Under the pieces are notes generated by a model. The model was not told the origin of the DNA. It saw only the letters and a list, made by a program, of their open reading frames with translations, and did no database searches. A stretch of 64,000 nucleotides of DNA from Terriglobus sp. RCC_193 (GTDB lineage Bacteria > Acidobacteriota > Terriglobia > Terriglobales > Acidobacteriaceae): contig NZ_JBFUPK010000001.1 in NCBI RefSeq assembly GCF_041355105.1, positions 124,001 to 188,000 of the forward strand, given 5' to 3'. Positions 35,983 through 47,847 of the stretch are shown one piece after another (positions within the stretch are counted from its first letter, which is position 1; every line of letters begins with the position of its first letter). Both the position numbers and the translations under genes were made by a program.

Positions 35983-36582
35983 ATGCGTGTCATACGTGTG
36001 TTGGCGATGTTCGCCTTCGCGATGCTTTGGTCTGTGTCTGGTACAGGTCAGTCCCGCCACGACTATCTGGCCAACAATGTTCTGCTCATTGTCCGTCACT
36101 CGGAAAAACCGGACAAGTCAGATAAGTCAGTTGACAGCCACGGACTTACGCCGCAGGGCGAGGCGCGCGCCAAGGCTTATGTGAACTATTTCCAGCACTT
36201 TCAGGACGGCGATCTGTCCTTTGCCGTGGATGGTCTTTACGCAGGGGCAGACAGCGACGAAAGTATGCGGCCACGATTGACGTTGGAGCCTCTGCATGCC
36301 GCCACGGGTATGCCTCTCCACAGCGACATTGGCACGAAGGACAATGCGCTGCTGGTGAAGGAACTGCGTGACAGCCCGCATGGAACACATCCGCTGATTT
36401 CATGGCGGCACGGTCAGATTCCAGCATTGCTGGAGGCTTTCGGCGCTTCGAAGACTTTGATACCTGACAGCAAGTGGCCGGACGATGTGTATGACTGGGT
36501 GATTGTCCTGTCGTTCGACGCAAACGGCAAACTCACTTCACAACGGCTGATCCATGAGGACCTGAAGATCGCGCTGCGGTAA
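35983..36582 (+). CDS. Secreted histidine phosphatase family protein
   Basis: This 199-residue protein has a signal peptide of about 22 residues. The branch-1-like motif reads LLIVRHSEKPDKSDKS (Arg-His core, RHSEKP in place of RHGE/Q), with a second His in SWRHGQIPALLEA. The fold is that of phosphoglycerate-mutase/phosphatase proteins, working here in the periplasm. It precedes a two-component system by 22 bp, so is probably co-transcribed with it, and an acid phosphatase lies further on. A phosphate-release role fits the neighbourhood. Confidence 0.75.
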   Translation: MRVIRVLAMFAFAMLWSVSGTGQSRHDYLANNVLLIVRHSEKPDKSDKSVDSHGLTPQGEARAKAYVNYFQHFQDGDLSFAVDGLYAGADSDESMRPRLTLEPLHAATGMPLHSDIGTKDNALLVKELRDSPHGTHPLISWRHGQIPALLEAFGASKTLIPDSKWPDDVYDWVIVLSFDANGKLTSQRLIHEDLKIALR

Positions 36583-36604
36583 GAGCCTGATCGCGGTAAC
36601 GCGA

Positions 36605-37270
36605 ATGAACATACTGGTCATCGAAGACGATACGCGGATTGCAGCCCTGGTGAACCGTGCACTGCGTGAAGAAGGCCACCGTGTGAGCATTTGCTATGAC
36701 GGACATGAAGGTGAGGAGTGCCTGTTAAACGGACAGTTTGACGTCGCTCTGCTGGACATCCTTCTTCCCGGTATTGATGGCTTTACTGTGTTGGAGCGTG
36801 TGCGCCGCAAGTTGTGCAAGACACCCATCCTGATGCTGACGGCGGTGGATGCAGTGCCAAAGATCGTGGATGCTTTCGATCGTGGTGCAGATGATTACCT
36901 GGTGAAGCCATTCATCCTGGAGATCCTGCTGGCTCGGGTAACAGCGCTTGGCCGACGCGTTATTCGCGAAGATCCGCAAGCGCTCAGCGCGGGCGATATC
37001 GTTCTGGATCCGGGCCGTCGAGTTGCTATCCGCAATCGCAAAGAGATCGCGCTGACACGCAAGCAATACGTGCTGCTGGAAACTCTGATGCGCCGCAAAG
37101 GCCTTGTCACTTCGCGCGAGCAGTTAATTGAAGCTGGCTGGGAATTTGCGGCAGACGTAAAGGAGAACACGCTGGATGTGTATATCCACGGGCTGCGCTC
37201 AAAACTTCAGGTAGATCACACGGTGATCCGTACGGTGCATGGCATCGGCTACATCTTTGAAGAGGGATAG
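36605..37270 (+). CDS. OmpR/PhoB-type response regulator
   Basis: This 221-residue two-domain regulator has a receiver beginning MNILVIEDDTRIAALVNRAL (acidic Asp 8/9). The phospho-acceptor is Asp 51 in LLDILLPGIDGF, with Thr in LTAVDAV and Lys 101 in DYLVKPF. The C-terminal winged helix has LTRKQYVLLETLMRRKGLVT and ENTLDVYIHGLRSKLQ, which is OmpR/PhoB type. Such regulators bind direct repeats spaced 10-11 bp. The kinase gene follows 4 bp later, and a matching repeat tract lies at 38693-38741. Confidence 0.93.
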   Translation: MNILVIEDDTRIAALVNRALREEGHRVSICYDGHEGEECLLNGQFDVALLDILLPGIDGFTVLERVRRKLCKTPILMLTAVDAVPKIVDAFDRGADDYLVKPFILEILLARVTALGRRVIREDPQALSAGDIVLDPGRRVAIRNRKEIALTRKQYVLLETLMRRKGLVTSREQLIEAGWEFAADVKENTLDVYIHGLRSKLQVDHTVIRTVHGIGYIFEEG

Positions 37271-37274
37271 GCTG

Positions 37275-38696
37275 ATGCTTTCGGTGCGCGCAAAACTCGC
37301 GCTGTTGTATTCGCTTGTCATGTTCACAGGGCTGGTGCTCTTCGGCATGCTGACGTACGGTCTGCTGCACTATGAACTCATCCAGGGCAAACAAACACAT
37401 CTGGATGGGCGAGAGGCGCGACTCATCAGTCTTCTGCAAACGAATGAGGCTTCGCGTACGCAGGCCAGCATCATCGAGCAGTTGAAGAACTACGCTCTGG
37501 TGACGCACGAAGGCAATCTCTTCCACATACGTAATGCGGATGGCTCGTGGATGTTTCCTACGGATCAACCAGGGCCAGACCTGCCACAATCGGAGGGATG
37601 CGAACATCCAACCTACGGCACGGTCATCCTTCAGGGTGGGCCGGTATTAGTGTTGTGCCATGCCATGTTGCTGAAGGGGCAACCGGTGCGTCTCTACATC
37701 GGTGGCGTGCTGGATGAAGAGGCCATCATCCTCAGCAGGTACCGCAACGCGCTGTTCCTTCTCTTGCCTGCGCTGCTGATTGTGGCATCGGTCAGCGGAT
37801 ATCTTTTGAGCCGCCATGCTTTGAAGCCGGTGGATCGTATTACGCGTGCCGCATTGGAAATTGGTGTTGGCAATCTCTCCAGCAGATTGCCCGTGCCCAC
37901 GGCGCGTGATGAAGTGCAGAACCTGGTGATTGCCTGGAATCAGCTATTGGCAAGGCTTGAAGCTGCGGTGTTGCGACTGAGCCGCTTCTCCGCAGATGCA
38001 TCGCATGACATTCGTACTTCCATCACCGTCATGCTGGCGACGGCACAGCTCTCGTTAATTCGCCCACGCGAAGAAGACGAATATAGGCATGACCTGGAGA
38101 AGATTGTCACGGAGTGCCGCACTGCCACTACGCTGCTGGATGCGTTGCTGACGCTTGCGCAGAGCGACAACTTCATCAATGAAGTGCAGTTTAAGCGGGT
38201 TGATTTATCAGAGTTGGTCGTAAGTGGATGCCGGCGTGTGGAAGACCTTGCCGAATCCTGCAGCATCTACCTTGACTGGCAACTTCCAGAGCAATCGATC
38301 AGCGTTAACGGCGATGAGGTTTTATTGCAGCGCCTGCTCGGCATCCTGCTGGACAACGCGATTCGCTATACGCCGCAGCATGGCGAAATTCGAGTAGAGG
38401 TTTCCTGGGGCGGGATGCGACCGCGCGTTACGGTGCGCGATACCGGTGTGGGCATGCCGGAAAGCGTGCGCGCGCATGTCTTCGATCGCTTTTATCAGGC
38501 GGATCTGCGAGAAGGGAAATCGCGCGCTGGCAATGGTCTTGGCCTTTCCATCGGGAGATGGATTGCAGACGCTCACGGTGCGGATTTAGCGGTGGAAAGT
38601 ACACCTCTTCAGGGGTCCACATTCCACATCGATTTCCCTGAAGGAGACGAACTGCACGTTTCCAGCGAAGCGATTGCGGAGTTGTCTCAATTCTGA
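37275..38696 (+). CDS. Sensor histidine kinase, membrane-bound
   Basis: This 473-residue inner-membrane kinase has a first helix at about 9-30 and a periplasmic sensor of about 125 residues with two cysteines. A second helix lies near 158-180, then HAMP, and the dimerisation helix SRFSADASHDIRTSITVML with His 244. The ATPase domain shows ILLDNAIRYTPQHGE (N box), VRDTGVGMPESVRAHVFDRF (G1) and GNGLGLSIGRWIADAHGAD (G2). The H box has DIRTS where many kinases have ELRTP. It pairs with the regulator 4 bp upstream. Ligand unknown; neighbours suggest phosphate or an organophosphate. Confidence 0.92.
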   Translation: MLSVRAKLALLYSLVMFTGLVLFGMLTYGLLHYELIQGKQTHLDGREARLISLLQTNEASRTQASIIEQLKNYALVTHEGNLFHIRNADGSWMFPTDQPGPDLPQSEGCEHPTYGTVILQGGPVLVLCHAMLLKGQPVRLYIGGVLDEEAIILSRYRNALFLLLPALLIVASVSGYLLSRHALKPVDRITRAALEIGVGNLSSRLPVPTARDEVQNLVIAWNQLLARLEAAVLRLSRFSADASHDIRTSITVMLATAQLSLIRPREEDEYRHDLEKIVTECRTATTLLDALLTLAQSDNFINEVQFKRVDLSELVVSGCRRVEDLAESCSIYLDWQLPEQSISVNGDEVLLQRLLGILLDNAIRYTPQHGEIRVEVSWGGMRPRVTVRDTGVGMPESVRAHVFDRFYQADLREGKSRAGNGLGLSIGRWIADAHGADLAVESTPLQGSTFHIDFPEGDELHVSSEAIAELSQF

Positions 38697-38741
38697 AAAG
38701 GCTCTGAAGCAGACCTGAAATCCATCTGAATTTCAACAGAA
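38693..38741 (+). promoter_or_regulatory. Five CTGAA direct repeats at exact 11-bp steps
   Basis: CTGAA occurs at 38693, 38704, 38715 and 38726, each 11 bp apart, and a fifth copy with one change (CAGAA) is at 38737. The first overlaps the kinase stop codon. OmpR/PhoB regulators bind tandem repeats with one-helical-turn spacing, and a regulator of that type lies just upstream. The tract is about 97 bp before the acid phosphatase ATG, so it is a likely operator for that gene. Binding is inferred. Confidence 0.65.
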
Positions 38742-38837
38742 ATGCGCATAGGCGCGACATCTACAAGGTCAAATTCACAGTCCTGCAATGGTTTTCTCTC
38801 TGTTCTTTCAAAAAGCACCCCTAGTCTCGCCCCTGAT

Positions 38838-39584
38838 ATGACTCAACTCAATCGCTTCACGGCTGCTCTGGGCCTGCTCTTTTGTGCCTCCCTGGCAGCG
38901 CAACAGGCTGCGACAACCCCGCCTTCGCCCAAGGCAGTAAAGACTTCGCGCTTTCTTCTTGGGTCTGCCCTGGATACCAGCCTGATCGTGGGGCATCCTC
39001 CAAGTGATACCTCCGCAGCCACCGTGCGGGAGTTGGAGCAACTGCACAAGCTGGAAGCAGCCCGCACACCGCAGGATGTGCAGGCAGCCCAGGCAGATGA
39101 CGTAGAGCAGGACATTTTCATTTATCGCAATATCTTCGGCAGCGGATTCACGGCGGAGAATCTGCCGCAACTGGCTGCACTTTCCACGGACGTGCATAAC
39201 GAAGAAGCCGTGGCCAGCACACCGCTGAAGAACGCATTCGCGCGTCCGCGACCGTACCAGTTGGATAGCACGCTGCACCCTGCTTGCAAGATCACGACCG
39301 AGCACAACTCCTACCCCAGTGGCCACACGCTCTCCGGCTATCTGTTGGGCTACACGATGGCCTACATCGCTCCTGATAAGAAGGACCTGATCCTGGCGCG
39401 CACAGACGTCTACGCGCAGCATCGGCTGACCTGCGGAGTGCACTACGCCAGTGATCTAGTGGCAGCCCGCGAGATAGCCTCCGCCATGTTCGGCGCAATG
39501 CTTACGAACCCTGTGTTCCGCGCGCGGCTTGTCGCGGCCCAGCAGGAGTTGCAGCAACGACTCACAGTAACGGCGTCACGTTAA
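38838..39584 (+). CDS. Class A nonspecific acid phosphatase (PAP2 superfamily), secreted
   Basis: This 248-residue protein has a signal peptide (about 20 residues, ending SLAAQQ). The phosphatase triad motifs are KNAFARPRPY, SYPSGHTLSGYLL and QHRLTCGVHYASDLVAARE, matching KX6RP-PSGH-SRX5HX3D with small changes. Such periplasmic enzymes strip phosphate from organic esters. It directly follows the two-component pair, with the CTGAA tract between, and precedes a TonB receptor by 57 bp. Confidence 0.88.
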   Translation: MTQLNRFTAALGLLFCASLAAQQAATTPPSPKAVKTSRFLLGSALDTSLIVGHPPSDTSAATVRELEQLHKLEAARTPQDVQAAQADDVEQDIFIYRNIFGSGFTAENLPQLAALSTDVHNEEAVASTPLKNAFARPRPYQLDSTLHPACKITTEHNSYPSGHTLSGYLLGYTMAYIAPDKKDLILARTDVYAQHRLTCGVHYASDLVAAREIASAMFGAMLTNPVFRARLVAAQQELQQRLTVTASR

Positions 39585-39641
39585 GCGCGCCGCTGTTCTT
39601 ACAGCCAGCTTTTACAAACAACATTTTCTCGGAGGTTACGG

Positions 39642-42371
39642 ATGACGAATAGAAAGACTTTGTTGCAGTGTGCACGCGCGCCACTGTTTGCTGTTGGCGC
39701 TGCGTTTCTGGTCACAACGCATATGGCCGTTGCGCAAATAGCTGCGTCCATCACGGGTACAGTTCTGGATGCCAAGGGTAGTTCCATTTCGCACGCCACC
39801 GTTACTATCACCGCTGAAAATGGCGGAGCGGTTGCACGCAGCACGGTCACCGATGCGCAGGGACACTTTAGCGTTACAGGACTGCCCCATGGCCGTTATC
39901 GCGTCGAGGCTGCCTCCACGGGATTTACCTCCACAGTGAAGACTGGCGTGACGGTAGCAGGAAGCGAGGCGACAGACCTCTCCATGACGCTCAACATCGG
40001 ATCGGTAGCGACCGAGGTGAATGTTGAAGCAGACCCAACGCATTCTGTCGCTGCCGCACTTGCTCCCATGGATACACCACTGGATGCTCGTTCTGCGCGC
40101 ACGGTGATTACGCAGCACTTTCTCCGCAACTTTACGTCACCCGTAGCTGACTTTGGCGAAGCTGTGGCGATGGCGCCGGGTACCTTCACAACGAACGGCA
40201 ATGGTGTGGGACTCGGACAATCGAGCACTTACTTCCGCGGCTTTCCTGACGGTAACTACGACATTGATTTTGACGGCATCCCTTTCTACGACACCAACAC
40301 TCCGACGCATCACTCGTGGGCATTTTTCCCATCGCAGTTCCTTGGCGGCATTGATTTCGATCGCAGCCCGGGTTCTGCTTCCACCATTGGCCCCACGCCT
40401 TTTGGTGGATCCATCCATCTTCTATCGAAGCCTGTATCGCCGGTCAGCAACATCCGCGGCAGTGTTGCTTATGGCTCGTTTAATACTCAGCTCTATAACT
40501 TCGAATATGACTCGGGCGGTCTGCTGCCCGGTAAGAAGTTGAACTTTTCCATCGATGTGCATCACATGCAGTCTGATGGCTACCAGACCTTCAATCATCA
40601 GACACGCAATGCGGGTGCCATCAAGGCTCAGTACAAATTCTCAGACAAGACGTATCTTTCGGGATTTTCCGGTGTGATCTGGCTGGATGCGAATACCCCC
40701 AACTTCAATGCAACTCGCTGCCAGATGTATGGCGCACAGAATGGCTATACGTGCACTGGAACGTTGGCGCCCTTTGCGGGTTCGGGAATCAACTTCCTGC
40801 TCACGGATAACTCCGATCCAGTGAACTATCTGAATAATCAGTACAACTACTACCACGTTCCCACAGATTTTGAGTACGTGGGCGTGCATTCAGAGTTTGG
40901 AAAGAATTTCATTCTGGATGTGAAGCCGTATACCTATAACTACGACAACGGCGAGAAATACTCGAATGCCACACCCATCACGGAACTGACTTCCATCAAT
41001 GGCTCCAAAACCTATAACGGTATGCCGATTGCACCATGCAACGTGCAGGTGGCGAAGAAGGGAGTCAGCGCGCTCCCTTGCGGTGTGGATAAGTACAACA
41101 GTTACCGCAAGTATGGTGAGACTTCTACGCTGAGCCAGGTGTCGCGCTTCGGAATCCTGCGCGCAGGCATGTGGTATGAGTGGGCTGCAACTAACCGGCA
41201 CCAGTTTCCTTCTGATCCGCTGAATAACTGGGCCAATCAACCCCTCTCCAACTTCAACGAATCGTTCTGGACAAACTCTTTTCAGCCGTATGCGGAATAT
41301 GATTTTCACGTAACCCGCAAGCTCGACGTAACGGCCGGAACGAAGTTTGCTCACTACAACATTCAGACCAAGCAGTATGCCGACAACGGAAAAACGATTG
41401 GTGGTCTGGGTACAAATGATCCGAATTCCTTCATTACAAATTCGGGCACGTATTCAGCGTGGTTGCCCTCTATTGACGGAAACTACAAGCTCACCAGCAA
41501 CTGGTCTGCCTATGCTCAGTTAGCCACGGGAAGTGTTGTGCCCCCGAGCAAGGTCTTTGACTATAAGCAGAGTGCAACGGGAATACCTGTGAAGACGCAG
41601 CCGAAGCAGCAGCGCTCCACAACCTATCAGTTCGGTAGCATCGTCAAGCTGCGACACGTGACCTTTAATGCGGATTTCTATCACACGCGTTTCCAGAACA
41701 GCTATTCATCCACGCTTGATCCGTCGGGCGAGCCGATCTACTTCCTGCAGCCCAGCTCCATCACCAAGGGCTTTGAAGCAGAGAGCAATATCTACATTGC
41801 GCACGGCTTAAGTGTGTATCTGAATGCAACGGTTGGCCGCGCCACCTATGTGGGCAATCTCGCAGTAAGCTGCACGTCTGGAGCTACGGGCTGCGGTACA
41901 TCGACAGCGCAGTTGACGCTCGCCGCACCTTCCGGTCTGTGGGTCGCCAACACCCCATCGGATACGCAAACGGAAGCTGTGACGTATCAGCACAAAGCGT
42001 GGGACGCAGGTATCTTCAACAAGCGGGTGGGGACGCTGTACCAGGACAATGGTCAGTACCACAATCAGGCAACCATCAATCCCTTCTCCGCGACGAATCT
42101 TTTCTTCAACTACACAGTCCGCAATGGTGGACGATTTGACCAGACCAAGATTCGTCTGAGCTTCAATAACCTCTTTGACCAACACAGCATTACAGGAACC
42201 AGCATCGCGGGTACCGCGTTGACGCAGAACATTGCGGCAAACGGAACCACTTATGTTGACCCGTTCAACACCACTGGACAAACACCCATCAACGGTGGAG
42301 ACAACGTCAGTGTTCTTCCTGGTCGCAGCGTTATGCTCTCGGTTACCTTCGGCCTGTCGCCAAAACGTTGA
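39642..42371 (+). CDS. TonB-dependent receptor with carboxypeptidase-regulatory domain
   Basis: This 909-residue outer-membrane transporter has a signal peptide to about residue 30 and a CarboxypepD_reg-like beta-sandwich (ASITGTVLDAKGSSISHATV through TVAGSEATDLSMTL). A plug includes YFRGFPDGNYDIDFDGIPF and GPTPFGGSIHLLSKPV, followed by a long beta-barrel. The last strand ends TFGLSPKR rather than the common terminal Phe. TonB and ExbBD energise import through such barrels. It is 57 bp after an acid phosphatase, so uptake of a phosphorylated or phosphatase-derived substrate is the inferred job. Confidence 0.88.
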   Translation: MTNRKTLLQCARAPLFAVGAAFLVTTHMAVAQIAASITGTVLDAKGSSISHATVTITAENGGAVARSTVTDAQGHFSVTGLPHGRYRVEAASTGFTSTVKTGVTVAGSEATDLSMTLNIGSVATEVNVEADPTHSVAAALAPMDTPLDARSARTVITQHFLRNFTSPVADFGEAVAMAPGTFTTNGNGVGLGQSSTYFRGFPDGNYDIDFDGIPFYDTNTPTHHSWAFFPSQFLGGIDFDRSPGSASTIGPTPFGGSIHLLSKPVSPVSNIRGSVAYGSFNTQLYNFEYDSGGLLPGKKLNFSIDVHHMQSDGYQTFNHQTRNAGAIKAQYKFSDKTYLSGFSGVIWLDANTPNFNATRCQMYGAQNGYTCTGTLAPFAGSGINFLLTDNSDPVNYLNNQYNYYHVPTDFEYVGVHSEFGKNFILDVKPYTYNYDNGEKYSNATPITELTSINGSKTYNGMPIAPCNVQVAKKGVSALPCGVDKYNSYRKYGETSTLSQVSRFGILRAGMWYEWAATNRHQFPSDPLNNWANQPLSNFNESFWTNSFQPYAEYDFHVTRKLDVTAGTKFAHYNIQTKQYADNGKTIGGLGTNDPNSFITNSGTYSAWLPSIDGNYKLTSNWSAYAQLATGSVVPPSKVFDYKQSATGIPVKTQPKQQRSTTYQFGSIVKLRHVTFNADFYHTRFQNSYSSTLDPSGEPIYFLQPSSITKGFEAESNIYIAHGLSVYLNATVGRATYVGNLAVSCTSGATGCGTSTAQLTLAAPSGLWVANTPSDTQTEAVTYQHKAWDAGIFNKRVGTLYQDNGQYHNQATINPFSATNLFFNYTVRNGGRFDQTKIRLSFNNLFDQHSITGTSIAGTALTQNIAANGTTYVDPFNTTGQTPINGGDNVSVLPGRSVMLSVTFGLSPKR

Positions 42372-46830: not shown

Positions 46831-46863
46831 TTGACCGTTTGGAGTTCGCCTGATGCGAGGGGT

Positions 46864-47847
46864 TCAGCTTTTCTTCAGGCGGGCGGCCAGGTCGGTCGCG
46901 GCGGATTGCCAGTCGGGGAAGCGGAATTGGAAGCCGTGTTTCAGCAGGAGTGCGGGAGATACCCAGCGGCTTTTGAAGACGAGTTCCGGTTCTGTGCGGA
47001 TGGCCCAGAGTGCGGGGCGCATGAGGAACTCTGGGGCCGGGAGACCGATGGGCATGTGCCATGCTCGGCGCAGCGTGCGCATGAAGCGGCGATTGATGGG
47101 AGCTTCCGGCGCAGCCAGATTGATGATGCCGCCGGTTTCTTCTGTTATCTCCGGGCGCGTCAGGAGAAGATTGATGGCGCGTATGAAGTCGAGTTCATGC
47201 ATCCAGGAGACGTGTTGTTCCCCTGAGCCCTGCGTTCCACCAAGTCCGAGGCGGGTGATACGCGAGAAGACTGCGAAGACGCTGCCGGGGCTGGGCGACA
47301 TGACGAGCGATGTGCGGAGCGCTACTCGTTGCGTGTGCGGTAGTGTTTCTGCGAAGAGAGCTTCTTCCCACTGCGCGCCGACGTCGACGGAGAATGAATA
47401 GGTTTCAGGGAGTGAGGCGGATTCGCGTTTGCCGCGTTCGAAGGGGCGGTCGCCGAGTTCACCGTCGAACTCGTCCTGCGCATGGTCATGGGCGTCGCGA
47501 TAGATGGTGGCGGTGGATGCGTTGAGCCAGATGCGTGGTGGTGTGGGTGAAGCTGCGATGAGTTTGCCGAGAAGCTGTGTGGGCAGGATGCGTGAGTCGA
47601 GAATTTCGCGGCGGTGCTTGGGCGTGTAGCGTGTGTTGACGATGCGGCCGGATAGGCCGATGACTGCGTCTGCGCGATGCAGTTCGGAGACCCAGGGGCC
47701 TTCCGTGATGCCGTCCCATTGGAGTGTTTGCCAGGGTGCGGGTTCTGGGTTGCGAGAAAGAACTGTGACCTGATGGCCTGCTTCGGTGAGATGGCGAGCC
47801 AGAACGCGACCGACTTGTCCGCTGCCGCCAGGGATAAGAATGCGCAT
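46864..47847 (-). CDS. TIGR01777 family SDR-like epimerase
   Basis: This 327-residue protein has the nucleotide-binding start MRILIPGGSGQVGRVLARHL, then DAVIGLSGRIVNTRYTPKHR and RIWLNASTATIYRDAHD. The family's EEALF...R.ALRTSLV segment follows, and a C-terminal DUF1731-like region (LPAPEFLMRPALWAIRTEPE; SRWVSPALLLKHGFQFRFPD). The family (E. coli YfcH) binds NADP but its substrate is unknown. It follows repeat array 1 and is followed on the same strand by the intergenic gap to a HAD gene upstream. Confidence 0.88.
   Translation of the reverse strand: MRILIPGGSGQVGRVLARHLTEAGHQVTVLSRNPEPAPWQTLQWDGITEGPWVSELHRADAVIGLSGRIVNTRYTPKHRREILDSRILPTQLLGKLIAASPTPPRIWLNASTATIYRDAHDHAQDEFDGELGDRPFERGKRESASLPETYSFSVDVGAQWEEALFAETLPHTQRVALRTSLVMSPSPGSVFAVFSRITRLGLGGTQGSGEQHVSWMHELDFIRAINLLLTRPEITEETGGIINLAAPEAPINRRFMRTLRRAWHMPIGLPAPEFLMRPALWAIRTEPELVFKSRWVSPALLLKHGFQFRFPDWQSAATDLAARLKKS

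Follow-up and report, generated by a model that had tools for sequence, protein, structure and literature searches.

The question raised by this locus is what role a tract of regularly spaced short repeats plays at the end of a two-component system of Terriglobus sp. RCC_193. The tract lies at 38693-38741 on the + strand of a 64,000-nucleotide stretch of contig NZ_JBFUPK010000001.1, and this stretch as a whole is referred to here as the window. It is formed by CTGAA at 38693, 38704, 38715 and 38726 and CAGAA at 38737, that is CTGAA-N6-CTGAA-N6-CTGAA-N6-CTGAA-N6-CAGAA with each step of exactly 11 bp. The initial annotation had described five repeats on such a grid, starting on the stop codon of a sensor kinase, and both points hold, unit 1 covering the stop codon of the kinase open reading frame (ORF) at 37239-38696. 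The array is probably the operator of the adjacent two-component regulator, controlling the secreted and outer-membrane genes beside it, a reading to which we give a probability of roughly 0.8 because many relatives keep such an array beside the same regulator. Direct repeats in tandem with a step of 10-11 bp are typical of the OmpR/PhoB family. The locus presents direct repeats at about this distance near a presumed target gene and conserved with the regulator, being absent in 9 of 30 loci.

The array is real and stands out against shuffled sequence. The pattern CTGAA-N6-CTGAA-N6-CTGAA, with up to two mismatches allowed, gave 3 overlapping matches here compared with a mean of 0.06 in 100 dinucleotide shuffles, none of which reached 3. 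In the 4,217,690 bases (nine contigs) of the genome itself the triple with at most one mismatch was identified only at 38693-38741, and the same pattern read backwards gave no match. The fifth unit is weak: among 19 aligned relatives only one (L025) has CAGAA at this place, and another (L026) has CAGGA. Single CTGAA-N6-CTGAA pairs were identified at 4 other places of the genome, with no winged-helix gene within 1.5 kb on either side. One of these pairs falls within the window itself (46863-46878), where a coding frame has its 3' end.

The regulator (36605-37270, + strand, 221 aa), presumed to bind the array, carries the Pfam domains Response_reg (PF00072, the receiver) and Trans_reg_C (PF00486, a winged helix), both above cut-off, as expected from its earlier description as an OmpR-type protein. 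Orthologues were searched with a profile of four of them at an E-value of 1e-75 or better, and were identified in 26 of 398 genomes of the family, with 30 matches in total. The set of 30 loci comprises the window and 29 relatives (L025-L027 and L072-L097), where L095-L097 are second copies with 50-57% identity. A triple was counted when three CTKAA units (K being G or T) at 11-bp steps, with no more than one mismatch in all, lay within 1.3 kb after the kinase. Such a triple is present in 16 of the 30 loci. L095 has no kinase match, so that the start of its searched stretch was guessed, and its one-mismatch triple lies outside the 16.

The spacing and the motif are both specific. With other spacings from 5 to 30 the same test gave no locus, except for 4 at 22, which is twice 11, and the reverse strand gave none. 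All 60 letter orders of the motif produced 26 locus matches in total, 16 of them from the true order, and of all 1024 pentamers the best is CTGAA, with 10 loci, followed by CTTAA, with 6. The eleven orthologue loci lacking the triple contain an exact pair at 11 bp in 4 cases, and pairs at spacings 13 and 21 in one each. The initial annotation had proposed to look in relatives for the 11-bp spacing following this regulator, and held that its loss would speak against a regulatory role; the spacing is kept, nine loci with neither triple nor pair apart.

The distribution in whole genomes agrees with this. Exact CTKAA triples are present in 16 of the 26 orthologue genomes and at the regulator locus in 15 of them, and across all 26 only two triples lie off that locus (G198:C29 and G392:C1). 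In the family as a whole any exact triple was identified in 42 of 398 genomes, hence in 26 of the 372 that have no orthologue. Regulators at a greater distance (43-52% identity; L028-L035, L096 and L097) have no array. A second set of genomes with species names, the best 80 of 396 relatives, appears to overlap the family genomes and is therefore not independent of them. Here the exact 11-bp triple is present in 6 of 14 loci with at least 60% identity, including Edaphobacter lichenicola, Granulicella mallensis and Granulicella sp. strains; none of the 66 loci with 36-51% identity has it within the flanks examined. Control spacings of 7, 12, 14 and 21 gave one locus-strand each. Among congeners the same array was identified in G003 and G013 and a shorter one, in register, in G007; when four congeneric loci are aligned the array holds the longest run of identical columns.

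The 20 loci with a triple or a pair comprise 63 exact units, 35 CTGAA and 28 CTTAA, with G as well as T found as third base in every one of the first four positions of the array. Judged by its sequence, then, the unit is CTKAA, a half-site of the PmrA and QseB type. Base 6 of the unit is A in 30, G in 23, T in 7 and C in 3 of the 63, and A stands at base 10 in 43. When up to one mismatch per unit is allowed, the arrays are of five units in two loci (the window and G003), four in seven, three in seven and two in four. As read by eye, two of them (L074 and L077), counted as three-unit arrays, are preceded by an extra exact CTTAA at a distance of 10 and not 11 bp; in L027 the extra unit has one mismatch. 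Four half-sites may be the usual number, given these extra CTTAA-like units.

It is extremely improbable that the array is a functionless tandem repeat, arisen by chance or by mutation. Such repeats do exist as near-perfect, minisatellite-like CTGAA arrays (L166, L208, L209 and L214), and the nine loci without an array would suit this origin. In the orthologous arrays, however, the five-base core and its spacing are kept, the core across genera, while the six intervening bases vary. Tandem Repeats Finder at score 30 reported no array in 36000-41000, consistent with a repetition of the core only and not of the spacer.

The genes beside the array were compared in the 29 relatives. The most frequent downstream gene is a TonB receptor (at least 38% identity over most of its length), present in 19 of the 29 loci, and the phosphatase was matched in only 9. 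Of the two kinds of gene named in the initial annotation, the TonB gene is thus the more usual companion of the array and the phosphatase an inconstant one. Among the 15 relatives with a triple a TonB gene is downstream in 13, six of which lack the phosphatase; the four loci with a pair all have the TonB gene and none the phosphatase. The position of the array also bears on a different explanation, namely that it regulates the two-component genes, or that it works at the RNA level within the 3' portion of the kinase gene. This would agree with the overlap of the kinase stop codon in the window, but in relatives the array lies off the kinase end, and in five (L086, L087, L088, L093 and L094) it is beyond a gene for a small, probably secreted protein on the opposite strand, so that we regard this explanation as very unlikely.

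The sensor histidine kinase (37239-38696, + strand, 485 aa as listed) carries the Pfam domains HAMP, HisKA and HATPase_c. Both proteins score best with NCBIfam models of metal systems, which together with the invariant His and Cys of the sensor makes them similar to CusRS and CopRS: the regulator with the CopR heavy-metal type TIGR01387 (182.6 bits, cut-off 279.2) and the kinase with the heavy-metal sensor TIGR01386 (258.2 bits, cut-off 292.55). They differ from these systems in that both are below the curated cut-offs, and the regulator is only 34.8% identical to Escherichia coli CusR. The known Cus and Cop sites are inverted-repeat-like. All 27 sequences in an alignment of the kinase with 26 relatives above 50% identity share H54, H90, C121, C140 and H141, residues that precede the HAMP domain. 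This invariant set suggests a metal or redox signal, which would fit the kinase better than phosphate. The remaining equivalog models were also far from satisfied by the regulator: PmrA 168.7 bits (cut-off 330), QseB 160.5 (345) and PhoB 149.8 (296.2).

The initial annotation knew of no named regulator with such a site; once the unit is read as CTKAA, the array does resemble named ones. The PmrA box is CTTAAT-N5-CCTAAG, bound head to tail, in the accessible part of PMC3973317. The array resembles this PmrA/BasR box in its head-to-tail CTTAA-type half-sites 11 bp apart, and the regulator is 39.0% identical to E. coli BasR; unlike it, most arrays here have 3-5 units, the third base is G or T and the neighbour genes are others. 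According to the portion of PMC4660055 consulted, N188, N196 and R210 of PmrA read bases and T187, V192 and H195 are in contact. At the equivalent positions of our regulator, whose recognition helix (KENTLDVYIHGLR) is almost invariant across orthologues, N188, V192 and H195 are kept, T187 is replaced by E and H193 by Y. The second relative is QseB, for which a predicted site CTTAA-N4-CTTAG was bound in an electrophoretic mobility shift assay, as stated in excerpts of PMC10714720. It shares the CTTAA-type site and is the closest of the four E. coli regulators compared (40.9% identity); the spacing and copy number are different and the regulator is far below the QseB model cut-off. ColR was considered and dropped, its consensus having a T-tract core in the text available of PMC2689224.

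A third known case is the Pho box of cyanobacterial SphR, formed by three tandem CTTAACCT boxes with 3-bp linkers and an 11-bp period (PMC1906773, from the passages at hand, where a phosphatase is among the SphR targets). The period is the same as here, and a phosphatase lies downstream of the array in the window, which would suit binding by another winged-helix regulator, PhoB-type for phosphate or one-component, the neighbouring two-component system being incidental. We consider this unlikely. The box of SphR is of 8+3 bp and its CCT end is missing here, base 6 of the unit being C in 3 of 63 units; the PhoB score is far below the cut-off and identity to E. coli PhoB is 30.8%. A global regulator should have more sites, whereas the genome has one array and no second triple, and in orthologue genomes the triple is at this locus in 15 of 26 and elsewhere only twice. 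A literature search, made largely without subscription papers, found, among the papers listed, no account of this two-component system or of CTGAA arrays in Acidobacteria.

Both this alternative and the main reading draw support from arrays at other winged-helix genes of Terriglobia. In the family, 31 places with exact triples off the locus were examined, 12 of which are directly before a winged-helix gene (one of them divergent from it) by a first winged-helix model, to which six of the test loci had contributed sequences. A stricter model, rebuilt without any test-locus sequence, retained 9 of 31. The loss is due to the family L139/L163/L165, in which Pfam nevertheless calls Trans_reg_C in L139, and L203 was also lost. 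The controls, loci of the pattern read backwards (30 of 48 listed places, two overlapping), had no winged-helix gene in 30 under either model; the comparison with the stricter model extends over 91 and 84 kb. One further place of the family (L036) has no winged-helix gene. Places from the order and the class have one in 7 of 7 under both models, and further class places in 3 of 10 (2 of 10 with the stricter model). Six genomes carry 8 to 23 winged-helix domains each, so that a chance neighbourhood should be rare. These tracts are not independent, as L146/L164, L167/L168, L139/L163/L165 and L037/L039/L040 look orthologous.

Eight of the off-locus proteins were scanned and all contain Trans_reg_C, four of them with TPR or PD40 repeats in addition. 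Genes that begin with an OmpR-type winged helix, several of which also encode TPR or PD40 repeats, are directly preceded by CTKAA or CTGAA arrays at 11 bp at L142, L145, L146, L160, L164, L139/L163/L165, L037-L043, L206 and L207. These arrays are likely, from their placement, to be self-marking operators of one-component regulators. A further set, chosen without reference to the motif, comprised 24 genes, mostly of one-component type (19 from a sample of 20, and five more; in L354 and L372 the winged helix is not N-terminal). Upstream of 5 of them some pentamer occurs as a triple at lag 11, each other lag gave at most one gene, and single-base shuffles gave a mean of 0.185 and a maximum of 1 in 200. 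The five are L329 (at about 256969 of C1 of the same genome), L369, L366, L374 and L360, with CTGAG, TGAGG-like, one-change CTGAA and CCTCA units; L329 and L369 look like orthologues.

From these data we put forward, tentatively and with some doubt, that CTGAR/CTKAA arrays at 11 bp constitute in Terriglobia an operator code common to dissimilar winged-helix regulators, comprising this two-component one and large one-component TPR or beta-propeller proteins that would mark their own promoters. Arrays of 3-5 units would then be bound by DNA-binding domains lined up head to tail in a chain of no fixed length, and not by single dimers. Against such generality, 19 of the 24 mostly one-component genes have no triple at lag 11. 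Upstream of 50 two-component-type regulators lag 11 was identified in 1, no more often than other lags, so the array is no general feature of the promoters of such regulators.

Returning to the array as operator of the neighbouring regulator, several observations weigh against it. Neither triple nor pair is present in L072, L082, L084, L089-L092, L096 and L097, although L091 is cut by the end of its contig; among these, the regulators of L072, L082 and L084 are 66-69% identical and differ in the helix by one residue at most. Of the three residues that make base-specific contacts in the PmrA crystal, two are changed in the regulator (N196 to G and R210 to H). A scan beside the array with the sigma-70 consensus gave no promoter-type match, and the loci are related by descent, so that the counts are not independent. 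The controlled gene is also uncertain: in the five relatives with the small secreted gene on the opposite strand the array is flanked by that gene and the divergent TonB gene, one or both of which it could control.

If the array is the operator, the kinase would sense a signal, probably metal or redox, and phosphorylate the regulator, which would then dimerise. Its winged-helix domains would bind head to tail, one per CTKAA and all on one face of the helix, and with four or five half-sites at least two dimers could bind next to one another, which would make the switch steep. Head-to-tail binding with one domain per unit and two or more adjacent dimers is the natural model that we infer. Such a switch would set the transcription of the cell-surface genes next to it; in the window these are the genes of the PAP2 phosphatase and the TonB receptor. 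Activation appears likelier than repression by analogy with the sites of PhoB and PmrA. The finding would provide an Acidobacteriaceae two-component system with a DNA code and one marked target region, making its signal and its surface genes testable. Since arrays with two to five units occur naturally next to orthologous regulators, they form an existing series in which unit number could be related to cooperativity. The link to one-component regulators, for which to our knowledge the targets are mostly unknown, would offer a way to predict their operators.

The remaining features of the locus are all on the + strand. Upstream of the regulator is a small protein, probably secreted (35983-36582), with a VRHSEKP motif, by which we take it to resemble a histidine phosphatase, although neither Pfam nor NCBIfam gave a match at 0.001. 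It has counterparts in 11 of 29 relatives, where its place and orientation around the locus vary. Downstream of the array is a PAP2-type acid phosphatase, probably secreted (38838-39584; PAP2 at 1e-12, PhoC model 73.8 bits with a cut-off of 430). Translation more likely starts at the in-frame ATG of position 38838 than at the ORF opening at 38742, since an apparent signal peptide begins there and two congeners match. With this start the gap between kinase and phosphatase is 141 bp and the array ends 96 bp before the gene, so that the array does precede the phosphatase, as first annotated, though at some distance. Between both, the alignment of four genomes presents a second partly conserved stretch (TTCACAGTCCTGCAATGGTTTTCTCTC, 38774-38801), possibly promoter-related, in which the consensus scan gave no sigma-70-type match. 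The TonB-dependent receptor (39642-42371) has an N-terminal CarboxypepD_reg domain; a profile search against solved structures gave no relative at 1e-3, and in three congeners its identity is 76-79%. Finally, CTGA-rich repeats that are minisatellite-like rather than operator-like were observed at L222 (at about 972661 of C2 of the same genome) as well as at L208, L209, L214 and L166.
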